A DNA stretch of 6,076 bases from an uncultured Eubacterium sp. (GTDB lineage: Bacteria > Bacillota > Clostridia > Oscillospirales > Acutalibacteraceae), in NCBI GenBank assembly GCA_934512155.1, contig CAKSWS010000057.1:1-6076 (forward strand), written 5' to 3'. Every line of letters begins with the position of its first letter. Within the stretch, counting starts at the first letter, position 1. Below are positions 1,552-6,076 of this stretch, in pieces. A program made the position numbers and the translations under genes. The notes beneath the pieces are model-generated. The model saw only the letters and a list, made by a program, of their open reading frames with translations. It ran no database searches and was not told where the DNA came from.

Positions 1552-1740
1552 TTAAAATTAACAAAAGAAAAATTTTTAATACATAATTAAAAAAGTTAAT
1601 TATAAAAACTGCACAAAAATCGGCATAAATTTGCTTGTTACAAAATGACGAAAAGCATAAAATTGCCAAAAATAATCGAGTTTTAAAACTATACAATAAA
1701 ATATTTTTTGTAAATATTGCACAAAATTATTTATTACATA
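1552..1740. other. AT-rich divergent spacer without a gene
   Basis: The gap between the divergent rfbA and gdhA start codons is 343 bases. The outer parts hold the two promoters. This central stretch is very AT-rich, has stops in all frames and codes for nothing convincing. It holds A- and T-tracts, a weak inverted repeat (AATTAA/TTAATT around 1586-1602) and TGCACAAAA twice (near 1611 and 1717). Curved DNA or an upstream activating region is possible, but nothing specific is supported. Confidence 0.6.
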
Positions 1741-1768
1741 TTGAAATCGTTGTTTAAAGTGTTATATT
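1741..1768 (+). promoter_or_regulatory. Probable promoter of gdhA
   Basis: TTGAAA (1741-1746) is followed after 16 bases by TATATT (1763-1768). An alternative -10, TATTAA (1765-1770), gives an 18-base spacer. The predicted start near 1775 leaves about 54 nt of untranslated leader, which contains the inverted repeat at 1784-1799. Confidence 0.6.
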
Positions 1769-1783
1769 AATATTGTAAAAAGA

Positions 1784-1799
1784 GTGAGCGGTTACTCAC
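1784..1799. repeat. Inverted repeat in the gdhA leader, operator or mRNA hairpin
   Basis: GTGAG (1784-1788) and CTCAC (1795-1799) are perfect inverted arms around CGGTTA. The repeat lies just after the predicted transcription start and 30 bases before the gdhA ATG, so it could be a repressor operator or a short 5' hairpin. It is GC-richer than the surrounding sequence. Function is inference; a 5-bp stem can arise by chance. Confidence 0.4.
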
Positions 1800-1828
1800 C
1801 TGATTATAAAACATAAGGGGGAACATTT

Positions 1829-3178
1829 ATGAACGAATACATAGAAAGCGTTATTAAAACAGTTGAAAGAAGAGATAACGCAAAGCCGGAATACATTCAG
1901 TGTGTTAAAGAAGTTTTTCGTTCGCTTGAAAAAGTAATTGAAGAACATCCGGAATATGTTGAAGACGACCTGCTTACAAGAATGGCAGAACCTGACAGAT
2001 TGATTACATTTCGTGTTGCTTGGGTTGACGATGCAGGCAAAACACAAATTAACCGTGGATACAGAGTTCAGTTTAACTCAAGCATAGGTCCTTATAAAGG
2101 CGGACTTCGTTTTCATCCCAGTGTAAACTCATCAATTATGTATTTCTTGGGATTTGAGCAAACGTTTAAAAATTCTCTTACAGGATTACCGATGGGCGGT
2201 GCAAAAGGCGGCTCGGACTTTGACCCAAGAGGTAAAAGCAAAGGCGAAGTTATGCGTTTTTGCCAAGCATTTATGACAGAACTTTACCGTCATATCGGTC
2301 CTAATGTTGACGTTCCTGCCGGTGATATAGGCGTAGGTGCACGTGAAATAGGCTTTCTTTTCGGCCAATACAAACGAATTGCCGATGCTTTTGAAAACGG
2401 CGTTATTACAGGCAAAGGTTTGTCTTACGGCGGTTCACTAATCAGACCGGAAGCAACAGGCTATGGCGCCATTTATTACACCTGCGAAGTTTTCAAGCAC
2501 GAACATGATGATATTAAAGGCAAAACATTTGCAATTTCAGGATTTGGTAATGTTGCTTGGGGTGCCTGCAAAAAAATTGCCGAACTAGGCGGTATTCCTG
2601 TTACAATTTCCGGACCTGACGGCTATGTTTACGATAAAGACGGTATTATTACTGAAGAAAAACTAAACTATCTTCTTGAAATGCGTGCTTCAGGCAGAGA
2701 CAGATGTGAAGATTATGCAGATAAATTCGGTGTTCCTTTCTTTAAGAGTGAAAAACCTTGGGGAGTTAAAGTCGACGTTGCACTCCCCTGCGCAACGCAA
2801 AATGAAATCGGCATAAAAGAGGCAAAGCAAATTATTGCAAACGGAACAAAATACTATATTGAAGTTGCAAATATGCCTACAACAGAAGAAGCTCTTAACC
2901 TGTTAATGGACACAGACGGAACAATTGTAGCACCGTCAAAAGCAGTTAATGCAGGCGGCGTTTGCGTTTCGGGACTTGAAATGAGCCAAAACAGCCAGCG
3001 TTTATCTTGGACGGCTAAAGAGGTTGACGAAAAACTTCACAACGCTATGATTGCAATACATAAAAACTCTGTTGAAGCCGCAGAAAAATATGGCTTGGGC
3101 TACAACCTTGTAGCCGGTGCAAACATCGCCGGCTTTGAAAAAGTTGCCGAAGCAATGATGGCGCAAGGTATTTATTAA
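1829..3178 (+). CDS. gdhA: Glutamate dehydrogenase, hexameric, probably NAD-dependent
   Basis: Interconverts glutamate and 2-oxoglutarate plus ammonia. The 449 residues match the hexameric 50-kDa class. Substrate-site lysines are K90 (GPYKGGLRF), K114 (FKNSLTGLP) and K126 (MGGAKGGSDFDP). The catalytic aspartate is D166 (PAGDIGVG) and S381 lies in VSGLEMSQN. These sit one residue on from the known Clostridium symbiosum positions K89, K113, K125, D165 and S380. The Rossmann turn is SGFGNVAW (237-244). F239 and the P263-D264 pair in SGPDGY correspond to residues that set NAD preference in the C. symbiosum enzyme, so I predict EC 1.4.1.2, usually catabolic. ATG at 1829 follows AGGGGG (1816-1821) by 7 bases. 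The gene appears monocistronic, with a promoter at 1741-1768 and a terminator at 3189-3229. Confidence 0.97.
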   Translation: MNEYIESVIKTVERRDNAKPEYIQCVKEVFRSLEKVIEEHPEYVEDDLLTRMAEPDRLITFRVAWVDDAGKTQINRGYRVQFNSSIGPYKGGLRFHPSVNSSIMYFLGFEQTFKNSLTGLPMGGAKGGSDFDPRGKSKGEVMRFCQAFMTELYRHIGPNVDVPAGDIGVGAREIGFLFGQYKRIADAFENGVITGKGLSYGGSLIRPEATGYGAIYYTCEVFKHEHDDIKGKTFAISGFGNVAWGACKKIAELGGIPVTISGPDGYVYDKDGIITEEKLNYLLEMRASGRDRCEDYADKFGVPFFKSEKPWGVKVDVALPCATQNEIGIKEAKQIIANGTKYYIEVANMPTTEEALNLLMDTDGTIVAPSKAVNAGGVCVSGLEMSQNSQRLSWTAKEVDEKLHNAMIAIHKNSVEAAEKYGLGYNLVAGANIAGFEKVAEAMMAQGIY

Positions 3179-3188
3179 TATAACAACA

Positions 3189-3229
3189 AAGCGGCAGCTC
3201 AAGACGAACTGTCGCTTCTTTAATTATTT
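3189..3229 (+). terminator. Intrinsic terminator after gdhA, possibly bidirectional
   Basis: The 9-bp stem AAGCGGCAG (3189-3197) with CTGTCGCTT (3209-3217) has one G-U pair and an 11-base loop. A T-rich tail, CTTTAATTATTT, follows. It lies 10 bases after the gdhA stop. On the minus strand the stem is followed by TGTTGTTATATT, so it may also end the convergent cupin transcript. Confidence 0.75.
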
Positions 3230-3252
3230 ATGGTATACTTTATAATTTTATA

Positions 3253-3576
3253 TTAAAAAGAAACAGTTAAAAGCATTTTAAACTGTTCTTCACCAAACAC
3301 TGCATGAGGAATTCCCTTTGGCATAACGATTGTTTCACCTTTTTCCAGGTAAAAAACTTCTCCGTCTATAGTGAATCTGCCTTTTCCGTCAAGCACTGTA
3401 ACCATAGCATCTCCTTCTGAAGCGTGAGTTGAAATTTCTTCATTTTTATCAAAGGAAAAAACGGTTACACTCATTAAATCATTTTGAACAAGAGTTTTAC
3501 TGACAACTTGACCGGATTGATACTGAACAAGATCTTCAAGCTTTAAAACTTCTTTTTTGTCAATATTTTTATACAT
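3253..3576 (-). CDS. Small single-domain cupin protein
   Basis: A 107-residue cytoplasmic protein with one cupin beta-barrel and no signal peptide or membrane segment. Motif 1 is seen at residues 46-66: H51 in STHASEGDAMVTVLDGKG, followed by FTIDGE. Motif 2 is GETIVMPKGIPHAVFG (80-95) with H91. The second histidine of the classical HxH pair is absent (H-A-S-E here), so the metal site, if any, is non-standard. Proteins of this compact type are common in Clostridia and other anaerobes; their substrate is generally unknown and I assign none. ATG at 3576 follows AGAAGG (3591-3586) by 9 bases. It has its own promoter at 3617-3645, is convergent with gdhA and divergent from the tRNA gene. Confidence 0.9.
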   Translation of the reverse strand: MYKNIDKKEVLKLEDLVQYQSGQVVSKTLVQNDLMSVTVFSFDKNEEISTHASEGDAMVTVLDGKGRFTIDGEVFYLEKGETIVMPKGIPHAVFGEEQFKMLLTVSF

Positions 3577-3616
3577 ATTTTAAATCCTTCTGCAACAATG
3601 CGTTAATTTACATTAT

Positions 3617-3645
3617 ATTATACAGCATATACGCACCTTTATCAA
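3617..3645 (-). promoter_or_regulatory. Promoter of the cupin gene
   Basis: On the minus strand, TTGATA (3645-3640) and a perfect TATAAT (3622-3617) are separated by 17 bases. The predicted start near 3610 gives a leader of about 34 nt. Confidence 0.8.
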
Positions 3646-3673
3646 CAAACAGATAAATATTTTAAATTATATA

Positions 3674-3701
3674 TTGACAAATAATAATTTTCTGCTATAA
3701 T
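3674..3701 (+). promoter_or_regulatory. Strong extended -10 promoter of tRNA-fMet
   Basis: TTGACA (3674-3679) is the consensus -35. TGC directly precedes TATAAT (3696-3701), which makes an extended -10. The spacer is 16 bases. Predicted transcription begins near 3708, about 19 bases before the mature tRNA, which fits a stable-RNA promoter. Confidence 0.85.
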
Positions 3702-3726
3702 TATATAGCAACGAGAAATCATATAT

Positions 3727-3802
3727 CGCGGGGTAGAGCAGTTGGAAGCTCGTCGGGCTCATAACCCGGAGGTCGCAAGTTCGAGTCTTGCCCCCGCAAC
3801 CA
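3727..3802 (+). tRNA. Initiator tRNA-fMet (anticodon CAT)
   Basis: The 76-base gene folds as a full cloverleaf with the CCA end encoded at 3800-3802. The acceptor strand CGCGGGG faces CCCCGCA, leaving C1 opposite A72, the unpaired first position that marks bacterial initiator tRNA. The anticodon stem TCGGG/CCCGG around loop CTCATAA has the three consecutive G-C pairs needed for P-site entry. The D stem is GAGC/GCTC with A11-T24, and the T arm is GCAAG-TTCGAGT-CTTGC. It is transcribed alone from the promoter at 3674-3701 and ends at the terminator 3-43 bases downstream. Elongator tRNA-Met and tRNA-Ile(CAT) are excluded by the C1/A72 mismatch. Confidence 0.97.
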
Positions 3803-3804
3803 CT

Positions 3805-3845
3805 ATAGTACACTTTAATTGATACATTAAAGTGTACTATTTTTT
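3805..3845 (+). terminator. Intrinsic terminator of tRNA-fMet with a perfect 15-bp stem
   Basis: ATAGTACACTTTAAT (3805-3819) and ATTAAAGTGTACTAT (3826-3840) are perfectly complementary around loop TGATAC. TTTTT follows at 3841-3845. The stem is unusually long and AT-rich for a terminator. Part of it is repeated at 3895-3916. Confidence 0.85.
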
Positions 3846-3894
3846 CATGCTTTTATAGACTGTTTAAGCGATTTGTTTCTGCTAAATGTACTGT

Positions 3895-3916
3895 TGTATC
3901 AAATATGGTGTACTAT
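3895..3916 (+). repeat. 22-nt imperfect inverted copy of the tRNA terminator left arm
   Basis: This copy reads TGTATCAA, then ATATG, then GTGTACTAT. The reverse complement of 3805-3826 reads TGTATCAA, TTAAA, GTGTACTAT, so 19 of 22 positions match in inverted orientation. An extra TGTACT lies at 3887-3892, 22 bases before the same hexamer at 3909. The surrounding 3846-3983 stretch holds no gene and separates the tRNA terminator from the end of the methyltransferase. A recombination-site remnant or a decayed small repeat are both possible. Confidence 0.5.
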
Positions 3917-3983
3917 CACCCTTTCGATTTACATATTCAGACACACACCGTGAAAACAGAATTTTTCGACTGCATTCTTTCAA

Positions 3984-4736
3984 TTATAATTTCTGTAAAC
4001 CAAACAAAGCCTGATTTTCAAATGGCATACGATATTTGAAGTGCATAGTATTCCAATAATCAACTCGCTCTTTCCGCTCCTGACTATTCGGTTTTTTGCG
4101 TAGTTTTTCAATATCTCTACGAACACTCCAAGTAAAATATCTATTCCAGTCATTTTCCGTGCCTGTTGCAAAATGCGTTATGTAATAACCTAAATCATTG
4201 AATATCCTATTTAACTTGGCTAATGGATACACACCACCATCAAATTCATCAAGCTCCTGCGGTACATCTTCGACAGTTGAAAAAACTTTTTGATAAAGCA
4301 ATGTTCCACCTTTTTTCAAAAATCTCTCACCAAGCTGAAATGTATTTTCAATAGATTCAATCGTTTCACTACAAATAACGACATCATATTTTGTATCGTC
4401 TTGGTATTTGGTAACATCTTTATGGATTAGCTTAACACGATTTACACCACTGCTTTTCAATCGCTTTTTGCCTGTGTGAATAAAATCCTTGCAGATATCA
4501 ACCCCGACACCTGATATGCCGAAGGCTTCACTCCATACTTTAAGGACTGTACCATAACCACAGCACAAATCCAAAATCCTGCTTTTTTCATTCAGACCAA
4601 GTTCATAGCCTATTCTCGAAATTTCATCTACAGGCACCATACTGATTAGATATTGATTATTCTCAATCTCTCCAAGTATATTTTTATATATGCTTACTTC
4701 AATATTTGTATTTTTTGATTTATTAATAAAACTCAA
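3984..4736 (-). CDS. Class I SAM-dependent methyltransferase under attenuator control
   Basis: The 250-residue protein starts at TTG 4736, placed by GGAGG (4749-4745) eight bases upstream. The frame stays open to 4865, but that extension runs through the terminator hairpin and lacks a ribosome site. ILDLCCGYG (54-62) is the SAM-binding loop, D80 in GVGVDI the ribose-binding acid, KDVT (106-109) the next acidic strand, DVVICSETIE (118-127) motif IV, and LKKGGTLLYQ (140-149) the following strand. The C-terminal third is rich in aromatic and basic residues. The NPPY/NxPY motif of Erm and base-N methyltransferases is absent, so the substrate (rRNA, drug or metabolite) is not determined. The leader at 4804-4989 strongly suggests induction by translation stress. 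I do not recognise a named gene. Confidence 0.85.
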   Translation of the reverse strand: MSFINKSKNTNIEVSIYKNILGEIENNQYLISMVPVDEISRIGYELGLNEKSRILDLCCGYGTVLKVWSEAFGISGVGVDICKDFIHTGKKRLKSSGVNRVKLIHKDVTKYQDDTKYDVVICSETIESIENTFQLGERFLKKGGTLLYQKVFSTVEDVPQELDEFDGGVYPLAKLNRIFNDLGYYITHFATGTENDWNRYFTWSVRRDIEKLRKKPNSQERKERVDYWNTMHFKYRMPFENQALFGLQKL

Positions 4737-4744
4737 TTTAAGTT

Positions 4745-4749
4745 CCTCC
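4745..4749 (-). promoter_or_regulatory. Ribosome binding site that sets the TTG start of the methyltransferase
   Basis: GGAGG on the minus strand (4749-4745), eight bases before TTG at 4736. No other in-frame ATG, GTG or TTG nearby has comparable spacing, and the site lies downstream of the attenuator terminator as expected. Confidence 0.85.
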
Positions 4750-4803
4750 AAAATATTATTAATTATAAAATATCCTATGGCGGCTATGCTTAAAAATGAG
4801 CAC

Positions 4804-4829
4804 AAAAAAGGACACGCCTTGCGTGTCCT
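4804..4829 (-). terminator. Attenuator terminator upstream of the methyltransferase
   Basis: On the minus strand AGGACACGC (4829-4821) and GCGTGTCCT (4817-4809) form a perfect 9-bp GC-rich stem with loop AAG. The T-run continues to 4804. It ends transcription about 68 bases before the methyltransferase start codon and follows no complete gene except the 10-codon leader, so it is a regulatory terminator. The plus strand has no T-tract after the stem, which fixes the direction. Confidence 0.88.
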
Positions 4830-4841
4830 AAAATTCAATTT

Positions 4842-4857
4842 CACGAAAGGTTTGATT
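4842..4857 (-). promoter_or_regulatory. Switching segment: anti-Shine-Dalgarno arm overlapping an antiterminator arm
   Basis: Minus-strand AATCAAACCTTTC (4857-4845) is complementary to the leader ribosome-site stretch GAAAGG-AG-TTTGATT (4961-4947): 13 pairs with a two-base bulge. The overlapping CCTTTCGTG (4850-4842) can instead pair with CACGCAAGG (4825-4817) at 8 of 9 positions, which would break the left arm and loop of the terminator. The shared CCTTTC makes the two pairings mutually exclusive. Confidence 0.65.
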
Positions 4858-4872
4858 GGTAACACAAATAAA

Positions 4873-4887
4873 CACAGTCAAACTGTG
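4873..4887 (-). repeat. Short hairpin between leader peptide stop and switching segment
   Basis: CACAGT (4887-4882) and ACTGTG (4878-4873) on the minus strand form a perfect 6-bp stem with a 3-base loop. It lies about 27 bases after the leader stop codon. It may act as a pause hairpin or simply bring the switching segment close to the leader ribosome site. Confidence 0.55.
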
Positions 4888-4913
4888 CATTTTTGCATTG
4901 ATGGTATTTATTT

Positions 4914-4946
4914 TTAAGCGATAGCCACCTCAAAAATAACTCCCAT
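4914..4946 (-). CDS. Ten-residue regulatory leader peptide MGVIFEVAIA
   Basis: ATG at 4946 is seven bases after AAAGGAG (4960-4954), an excellent ribosome site, and the ORF ends at TAA (4914-4916). The peptide is MGVIFEVAIA, hydrophobic and too short to fold, so its translation rather than its product is probably what matters. Macrolide-sensing leaders of erm genes stall ribosomes after eight or nine residues; ErmC leader begins MGIFSIFVI and ErmA leader contains IAVV at residues 5-8. Here isoleucine is also residue 9, preceded by V-A. The resemblance is suggestive only. The position between promoter and terminator supports a regulatory role. Confidence 0.75.
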   Translation of the reverse strand: MGVIFEVAIA

Positions 4947-4964
4947 AATCAAACTCCTTTCTTC

Positions 4965-4985
4965 AATCTTGATATAATCAAGATT
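4965..4985. repeat. Perfect inverted repeat at the 5' end of the methyltransferase leader
   Basis: Plus-strand arms AATCTTGAT (4965-4973) and ATCAAGATT (4977-4985) are perfectly complementary around ATA. It begins about four bases after the predicted transcription start, so it could be a 5' hairpin that protects the RNA or an operator for a dimeric repressor. The motif TTGATTAT also occurs in the -35 region and next to the leader ATG. Confidence 0.7.
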
Positions 4986-4995
4986 TATTAATTAA

Positions 4996-5024
4996 AGTAT
5001 AACATTGTTCAAACAAATAATCAA
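4996..5024 (-). promoter_or_regulatory. Promoter of the leader-methyltransferase unit
   Basis: Minus-strand TTGATT (5024-5019) and TATACT (5001-4996) are separated by 17 bases. The predicted start is near 4989, so the full mRNA carries about 250 nt of untranslated leader before the TTG start at 4736. Confidence 0.75.
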
Positions 5025-5088
5025 GTTATTTTATTGCTTTGAATAGTTATACAAAAGAATATCTTCTTCTAAACTCATACCATACGAT

Positions 5089-5438
5089 ATGTTTTTGTTT
5101 GAGGTATTAGACGGGTGGTACGAATTAATTTTTAATTTAAGCGAGAAAATTGAAGCATATTACACGGAGGCTAATGCAGTTGTTGATTTAAAAGTATTAC
5201 AAATCAAAGAAAAATTCGGAATACTTCAATTTTATTATGTGTTTACCGATTATACTAAAAATATAGAATTACATAAAAAATCGACCTCGCCATAGACGAA
5301 GCCGAAAACAAATTTTCTACAATATGTGAAATATGCGGCAGACAAGGTTCTTTAAGAGCTGATTTGCCTTGGATGGAAACTTTATGTGATGAACACTACA
5401 ATGGAAGAAAAATAAAGATATATGATATAAATATTTAA
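5089..5438 (+). pseudogene. Frameshifted small CxxC/CxxH protein, unknown function
   Basis: The first frame runs from ATG 5089 (MFLFEVLDGWYELIFN...) to a stop at 5295. After the A6 run at 5275-5280, the -1 frame continues sensibly as IDLAIDEAENKF to TAA at 5436-5438, with CEIC (5325-5336) and CDEH (5385-5396), a possible zinc site CxxC-x16-CxxH. One missing A in the run explains the break. The joined product resembles a family of small uncharacterised proteins I recall, with a GDGW[YF]xLI start, a VxQIKEKFGxLxFYY core and a C-terminal Cys pair; here GDGW has become LDGW. No ribosome site precedes 5089, and the same frame is open back to a stop at 5044 without another start, so the N-terminus is probably lost too. 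A sequencing error in the A-run could mimic the frameshift but not the missing start. Confidence 0.65.
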
Positions 5439-5440
5439 AC

Positions 5441-6076
5441 TTAATCGAAAGGATAAATTTTCATCGGAGCATCACCAAAAATATTTTTATAACCACCTTG
5501 TCTATTTATAAATCTTTGTAAAAGTGTTAAAGTTTCCTTATCACCAAATATATACCTATTAGCATATGATAATTGAATAGCATTATATGAAATCACGCTT
5601 TTGTCAGAAAGTTGAATAGTGTGACCTGTTGGCTTTTCTTTAGAAATAAGAGGTGCATTAGGTTTATTTACTTTAAAAACCATAGCGACATCACCATTTA
5701 GTGGTATGCAAATATCATTGAAACCTAATCTAACTCCTTGTGCAGGATCATCAGAAATGATAAATTTCATTTTTCCACATGCAACTCCTATATACCAATC
5801 GTAATTGTCAATTAACTGCATTGTTGTTCTTATTAAAGGAGAAAAAGCAAGTAGCCCGTAAAGTTGGCTATCTTTTGAGGCGTTATCCATACCTTCAACT
5901 CTGCTTGGATCGATGCCCATCTTTTCTAAATGTGAAAGTTCTTGCACTCTAACATTTTCTAATTGCATACGATATTTTTCAGAACGAACTGATAAATCAT
6001 GAAGAAAAATAATAATTTTTCGCATATTGGTTTCATCGTAAAAAGCCTCATAATCAGATGTCACCTCATCTAACAC
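5441..6076 (-). CDS. DUF4238-like protein, C-terminal 211 residues (cut by right window edge)
   Basis: The frame is open from the right edge to TAA at 5441-5443. The GTG at the edge is probably an internal valine codon, since DUF4238 proteins are usually near 300 residues and begin with a conserved His-rich N-terminus that is absent here. Visible features are a charged helical stretch (residues 20-60 of the fragment), then NYDWYIGVACGKMKFIISDDPA (91-112) and PLNGDVAMVFK (125-135), matching the F-I-x-S-D-x-P and following 'Pl' strand that I associate with DUF4238. Function is unknown; such genes often lie in accessory or mobile regions. It ends 2 bases from the convergent pseudogene. Family assignment is from memory of the motif and is moderate. 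Confidence 0.65.
   Translation of the reverse strand: MLDEVTSDYEAFYDETNMRKIIIFLHDLSVRSEKYRMQLENVRVQELSHLEKMGIDPSRVEGMDNASKDSQLYGLLAFSPLIRTTMQLIDNYDWYIGVACGKMKFIISDDPAQGVRLGFNDICIPLNGDVAMVFKVNKPNAPLISKEKPTGHTIQLSDKSVISYNAIQLSYANRYIFGDKETLTLLQRFINRQGGYKNIFGDAPMKIYPFD

Follow-up and report, generated by a model that had tools for sequence, protein, structure and literature searches.

A putative ribosome-mediated attenuator precedes a YjhP-like methyltransferase gene and recurs in Clostridia, mostly before a second RsgA

Upstream of a gene for a YjhP-like methyltransferase, the window (the whole stretch of DNA analysed here, 6,076 nucleotides) carries a leader with a 10-codon ORF, a complement of its ribosome site and an intrinsic terminator. 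Judged from its sequence, this leader is probably a ribosome-mediated transcription attenuator of the methyltransferase gene. The arrangement recurs in some Clostridia, mostly before a second RsgA, and is therefore likely to represent a switch that would activate genes once ribosomes are blocked. For the window leader itself we infer ribosome control and a response to antibiotics.

Under normal translation, ribosomes would clear the leader, the ribosome site would re-pair with AATCAAACCTTTC (P1, the anti-antiterminator) and the terminator would stop transcription. Ribosomes stalled or queued on the leader, most likely because of a ribosome-targeting antibiotic, would sit on the ribosome site and disrupt P1. 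Once freed, CCTTTCGTG could bind the terminator's 5' half, and a fraction of the transcripts would read through into the gene.

Results

Architecture of the leader in the window

The elements listed by a first-pass annotation of this DNA, i.e. promoter-like site, hairpin, ribosome site, 10-codon ORF, switch segment and terminator, are all present in this order in the letters of the minus strand (Table 1). It had also placed the structural gene just behind the leader. The methyltransferase is indeed the first gene after the terminator, while its start had to be corrected to the TTG at 4736, 72 nt past the terminator stem. Matches to the promoter-like pattern occur at chance level (14 found, 12.8 expected from shuffles), and five terminator-like sites lie in 3600-6076 where 1.2 are expected. 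Across the eleven leaders compared below, the 5' hairpin P0 reaches z <= -2 in four (window, L009, L006 and L040) and is weak or absent in the other seven, and the z value of the middle hairpin P3 is negative in every one (range -1.0 to -5.7).

Table 1. Coordinates of the leader elements and of the methyltransferase gene in the window
Feature	Position	Strand	Remarks
Promoter-like site TTGATT-17-TATACT, TG before -10	4996-5024	-	9/12 matches
5' hairpin P0, AATCTTGAT-TAT-ATCAAGATT, 9 bp	4965-4985	-	z -3.3 vs mononucleotide shuffles
Leader ribosome-binding site GAAAGGAG, 5' arm of P1	4954-4961	-	
Predicted leader ORF MGVIFEVAIA*, 10 codons, GAGGTG at codons 6-7	4914-4946	-	begins 7 nt after GAAAGGAG
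Leader-ORF hairpin P2	4901-4946	-	83% complementary, fold, consensus with L009 and L006
Middle hairpin P3	4861-4899	-	fold; z -3.0
Switch segment AATCAAACCTTTCGTG, anti-RBS and candidate antiterminator arm	4842-4857	-	
Intrinsic terminator, 9-bp stem 4829-4809, loop AAG, TTTTT run	4804-4829	-	
Post-terminator segment ATTTTTAAGCATAGCCGCC, complementary to 3' part of leader ORF	4779-4797	-	
Methyltransferase ribosome-binding site GGAGG	4745-4749	-	
YjhP-like class I SAM-dependent methyltransferase, 250 aa, TTG start	3984-4736	-	

Both pairings that the annotation had proposed for the switch segment can be traced in the sequence. Its part AATCAAACCTTTC (4857-4845) forms 13 pairs with GAAAGG(AG)TTTGATT around a 2-base bulge, and CCTTTCGTG (4850-4842) pairs at 8 of 9 positions with CACGCAAGG of the terminator. 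For the 283-nt stretch 5012-4730 the predicted folding energy is -75 kcal/mol (z = -5.1), a value that none of 200 shuffles equalled. The minimum-energy fold of this stretch uses a duplex between the leader and the segment behind the terminator and lacks the RBS pairing, which is present in the minimum fold of the leader up to the terminator and in that of 4990-4650. Taken alone, the RBS pairing exceeds shuffles modestly (P = 0.034 and 0.048 in two tests), and the antiterminator is weak, with -3.6 kcal/mol vs -14.2 kcal/mol for the terminator and P = 0.48; the shuffles in these tests, and in those of the duplex, P0 and P3, preserve base composition only. That the complete arrangement is found again in other genomes is stronger evidence than the RBS pairing alone.

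Recurrence of the leader in Clostridia

The main sample consisted of 391 genomes of the class Clostridia, to which G002, a Lachnospiraceae MAG carrying the methyltransferase locus L002, belongs. Using blastn with the window leader, 33 genomes were matched, 30 with loci were inspected and two (G168 and G285) were retained. The resulting loci L006 and L009 have the same order of parts and encode the peptide MSVVFEVAFL. From these two leaders and that of the window we built an RNA covariance model (R1, alignment A5), which gave ten matches; eight were judged real, and G030 and G196 were dropped because they comprise the terminator only. The 14-mer CCTTTCGTGAATAC gave 14 matches, of which eight were judged real and six (G015, G068, G129, G130, G279 and G322) were discarded for want of a leader; the reversed pattern, used as a control, matched five times. 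Together, model and 14-mer place the leader in 9 of the 391 genomes. It stands before RsgA in eight of them (G168, G285, G113, G018, G215, G323, G275 and G087) and before a GNAT acetyltransferase gene in one (G297), the leader preceding the GNAT gene being designated L041. A 15-mer search of 398 genomes of the phylum returned G168 again and a chance match without leader in G536, with one match for the reversed control, and order-level searches around G113 and G018 covered 7 genomes and 1 genome, respectively. The leader element is rare.

We then compared eleven leaders, namely those of the window, L001, L006, L009, L040, L041, L042, L044, L046, L047 and L056. Nine of them carry exact copies of GAAAGG as well as of CCTTTC; L001 has GAAGG, and L041 retains the RBS complement through a different sequence (P = 0.010 vs shuffles). 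The leader ORF is 10 codons long in eight and 11-12 codons long in the remaining three. Its predicted peptides are MGVIFEVAIA (window), MSVVFEVAFL (twice), MTVNEKVIVS, MTDLFEVIAS, MTALYEVIVS, MTAVYEVIVS, MTALYGVLMS, MSVKNVEVVFR, MEKVNMRSIIN and MSAYKIELVVVT. Codons 6-8 of the ORF contain a 6-8 nt complement of what we take to be the 16S rRNA 3'-end sequence in 8 of the 11 leaders, in the form of GAGGTG, AGGTGAT or GAGGTGAT (4931-4926 in the window), so that the conserved E-V may reflect the RNA as well as the peptide. An amino-acid attenuator was rejected, as codon runs are absent from all eleven peptides.

The leader of L001, from an Oscillospiraceae MAG, is followed on the same strand by genes for a GNAT-like protein, then an APH-family kinase and finally a YjhP-like methyltransferase (2752-5723 including the leader). 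This last enzyme is 58% identical to that of the window, and the cluster looks like a resistance-type cluster.

RsgA paralogues behind the leader

Each of the eight genomes with a leader-linked RsgA contains exactly two strong RsgA matches (at least 157 bits), all further matches scoring about 36 bits or less. The eight RsgAs behind the leader form a clade of their own apart from the eight other copies (support 1.000). Identity averages 65% within this clade and 28% (at most 32%) between it and the other copies. In the 1.6-1.7 kb around each of the eight other copies, which are presumably the housekeeping ones, the core CCTTTCGTGAA was not found. At L006 the RsgA GTPase behind the leader also has an RNHCP domain (1700-3037).

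Pairing and switching across the eleven leaders

In the unmasked fold, the switch is paired with the RBS arm at 0.48-0.99 of its positions in ten leaders and at 0.08 in L056. A ribosome mask over RBS and ORF abolishes this pairing in the fold model. Masking raises the pairing between the switch and the 5' half of the terminator in five leaders (window, from 0.25 to 0.51, L009, L040, L046 and L044); in the remaining six the rise is below 0.03. At equilibrium the completed terminator is the dominant structure of 10 of 11 leaders without the mask and of 9 of 11 with it, the exceptions being L001 and masked L046 (0.47). An antiterminator would therefore have to act while the RNA is still being transcribed, and pausing of the polymerase, or the ribosome itself, might assist it. 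The initial proposal of an on/off switch set by ribosome occupancy is upheld in part. The ORF, RBS complement and terminator recur together, whereas the on/off exchange is a putative one, with an antiterminator gain under the mask in 5 of 11 leaders and a terminator that still wins in 9 of 11.

Statistical support for the individual pairings varies. The RBS arm pairs with the stretch from stop codon to terminator better than shuffles (P < 0.05) in four leaders (window, L046, L056 and L041), with P values of 0.10-0.49 in the other seven. In P1, cognate arms form better pairings than swapped arms (P = 0.015 for the 11 leaders, 0.11 for 6 representatives); the same comparison is weak both in the extension of P1 (P = 0.10) and in the antiterminator (P = 0.14 for the 11 leaders, 0.046 for 6 representatives). 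Double changes that keep pairing occur at 6 of 54 consensus pairs in alignment A5, in which two of the three leaders (window, L009 and L006) are near-identical, and at 1 of 37 pairs among the five closest RsgA leaders. Covariation is thus modest. A second terminator-like hairpin with a T run lies right behind the first in eight leaders (L006, L009, L040, L042, L044, L046, L047 and L001) and is lacking in the window; one antiterminator would not explain this second terminator. The 3' strand of P3 was considered as antiterminator of the RsgA leaders and rejected, since by eye it is not consistent.

The dominance of the completed terminator with or without the mask would also fit a plain partial terminator, with expression by constitutive read-through and with leader ORF, hairpins and RBS complement being incidental. 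The chance-level promoter-like site and the modest RBS pairing, which misses P < 0.05 in seven leaders, point the same way. However, a 10-12-codon ORF, RBS complement, P3 and terminator recur jointly in eleven leaders, and the core is missing around the other RsgA copies of the same genomes. We therefore regard a plain terminator as unlikely.

A duplex between the leader ORF and the post-terminator segment

The 3' part of the leader ORF (4929-4910) pairs with 4797-4779 through 19 pairs and one bulge. The predicted energy of this duplex is -29.0 kcal/mol compared to a shuffle mean of -12.8 kcal/mol, and none of 2000 shuffles is as good. The duplex might add a layer of translational control in the window. 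It could even be the main one, if pairing of the 3' half of the leader ORF upstream of the methyltransferase ribosome site were prevented by ribosomes on the leader and the terminator served only to lower the basal level. The strength of the complement and its use in the minimum fold of 5012-4730 are consistent with such control, and the upstream extensions of the relatives P0002, P0013 and P0019, back-translated by eye, fit conservation of the segment. Both layers are combined in C. difficile cplR, according to the part of PMC10201436 available to us. However, the GGAGG of the methyltransferase lies outside the duplex, and its accessibility hardly responds to a ribosome extending from RBS to stop (0.23 to 0.22), reaching 0.50 when only the initiation region is occupied. 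The duplex has a probability of 0.05 in unmasked 4990-4650, and no comparable pairing excess was found in the other ten leaders. Mainly translational control of the window gene thus appears improbable.

It is hardly to be expected that, in place of a translating ribosome, a ligand, some protein or the 30S subunit itself (e.g. RsgA or the state of ribosome assembly) reads the leader RNA, with the strongly conserved CCTTTCGTGAATACTG as its binding site: conservation in the RsgA leaders does extend past what RBS pairing needs and the 16S complement is present in 8 of 11 leader ORFs, but the leaders keep an ORF of nearly constant length behind a good RBS, the window carries CCTTTCGTGAAATTG and an Rfam family match is absent.

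The methyltransferase

The window enzyme is closer to YjhP (1nkv), in sequence and fold, than to most other methyltransferases of known structure. A structure model built from 76 sequences (pLDDT 93.6; 51 with 16 sequences) predicts that it folds like E. coli YjhP. An NPPY-type motif is the signature of Erm rRNA methyltransferases. The first-pass annotation had noted its absence, and there is indeed no NPP in the 250 residues; the assignment can now be sharpened to a YjhP-like class I enzyme. No Erm enzyme appears among the 50 matches listed in the fold comparison, which is no measure of kinship with Erm.

Named close relatives of the protein come from Eubacterium sp. and Oscillospiraceae MAGs. 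Scanning genome contigs for relatives yielded five distant loci (L001-L005), and in four of these, L002-L005, the leader model had no match in about 5 kb of upstream DNA. A search with P0001 at E 1e-45 in the 398 phylum genomes matched G002 only, and no relatives of the methyltransferase were found in viral contigs.

Genomic neighbourhood and searches for known elements

A tRNA gene and, directly behind it, a 15-bp inverted repeat with a T run occupy 3727-3840 on the plus strand. The methyltransferase block adjoins them in the manner of insertions beside tRNA genes. At 5089-5438 on the plus strand a small ORF (5089-5295) seems by eye to run on in another frame with the cysteine-containing end CEICGRQG, and the region looks like a broken gene. 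The minus strand of 5441-6076 encodes a protein with a weak match to DUF4238, below the family cut-off.

A riboswitch, T-box or other known RNA was discarded as an explanation: in an Rfam 15 scan of the window only the tRNA reaches its gathering score, and the six sub-threshold matches in 4700-5100 each score less than half of theirs. A plasmid or phage module was likewise rejected, as the window leader gave nothing against plasmids and phages except one short plasmid match (E 0.2). The L009 leader had no matches in plasmids, nor had the L046 leader in plasmids and phages. In viral contigs one leader pattern gave two matches, both inside coding DNA, and two more patterns gave none. PADLOC returned partial generic matches only.

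Discussion

Stalled-ribosome attenuators often mark genes that aid survival of translation inhibitors. The leader family described here points to two candidate effectors of this kind, an additional RsgA GTPase and a methyltransferase of the YjhP type. We tentatively suggest that a conserved clostridial attenuator family controls a second RsgA ('RsgA-r', a small-subunit counterpart of HflXr) and YjhP-like methyltransferases, which would be two new kinds of inducible drug protection, with the YjhP type recruited independently in clostridia and E. coli; at present this is possible rather than probable. The kind of regulation is known, and the leader family and its two effectors are undescribed as far as our searches of papers and Rfam reach. 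Among open-licence articles in PubMed Central we found none on RsgA with leader peptides or attenuation, and none that assigns a role under stalled-ribosome attenuators to a second RsgA or a YjhP-like methyltransferase. A term search for rsgA in the accessible text of PMC8632094, on structured RNAs, was negative.

Among known systems, the erm leaders likewise place a short leader peptide ahead of a methyltransferase, and the hydrophobic peptide ends VIAS and VIVS found here presumably resemble the IFVIS of ErmCL. They differ in that the window methyltransferase is YjhP-like and, by motif, not Erm-like. Control of the ermC type is translational, as stated in the section of PMC6310831 at hand. 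The attenuators of the ABC-F genes cplR, vmlR and lsaA share a uORF within a 5' hairpin and a terminator, and there an antiterminator forms upon ribosome stalling; in contrast, their uORF consensuses have 3-4 residues (MR[I/M], MIN, MK[L/Q] and MAGN) and their targets are ABC-F proteins (PMC10201436, in the portion accessible).

HflX/HflXr provides a close precedent, as far as the available part of PMC6310831 describes it. Listeria hflXr/rli80 combines a short uORF and an intrinsic terminator with an anti-antiterminator that overlaps the ORF region, and the ribosome-associated GTPase under its control is one of two copies. Its 14-aa peptide contains an RLR motif, which is absent from the eleven peptides here, and its target is HflX, whereas ours is RsgA in most relatives and the methyltransferase in the window. 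For hflXr, induction by drugs has been proven, while the present leaders are known from sequence (same portion of PMC6310831).

The link to YjhP comes from E. coli, where the uORF toiL opens the topAI-yjhQ-yjhP operon with at least five classes of ribosome-targeting antibiotics (PMC12121999, as far as its available text goes). In both cases a uORF lies ahead of a gene of the YjhP family, to which the window methyltransferase belongs. According to the same text, however, toiL hides the topAI ribosome site and leads to Rho-dependent termination inside topAI, in contrast to the intrinsic terminator here, and topAI and yjhQ accompany yjhP, whereas no other gene stands between the window leader and that of the methyltransferase. 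That portion of PMC12121999 gives no substrate for yjhP, even though the operon is antibiotic-induced. As the E. coli operon is antibiotic-induced and a clostridial relative of yjhP stands under a different leader of the antibiotic type, both the methylation target of YjhP and its effect, whether protection of the ribosome or alteration of the drug, become directly testable.
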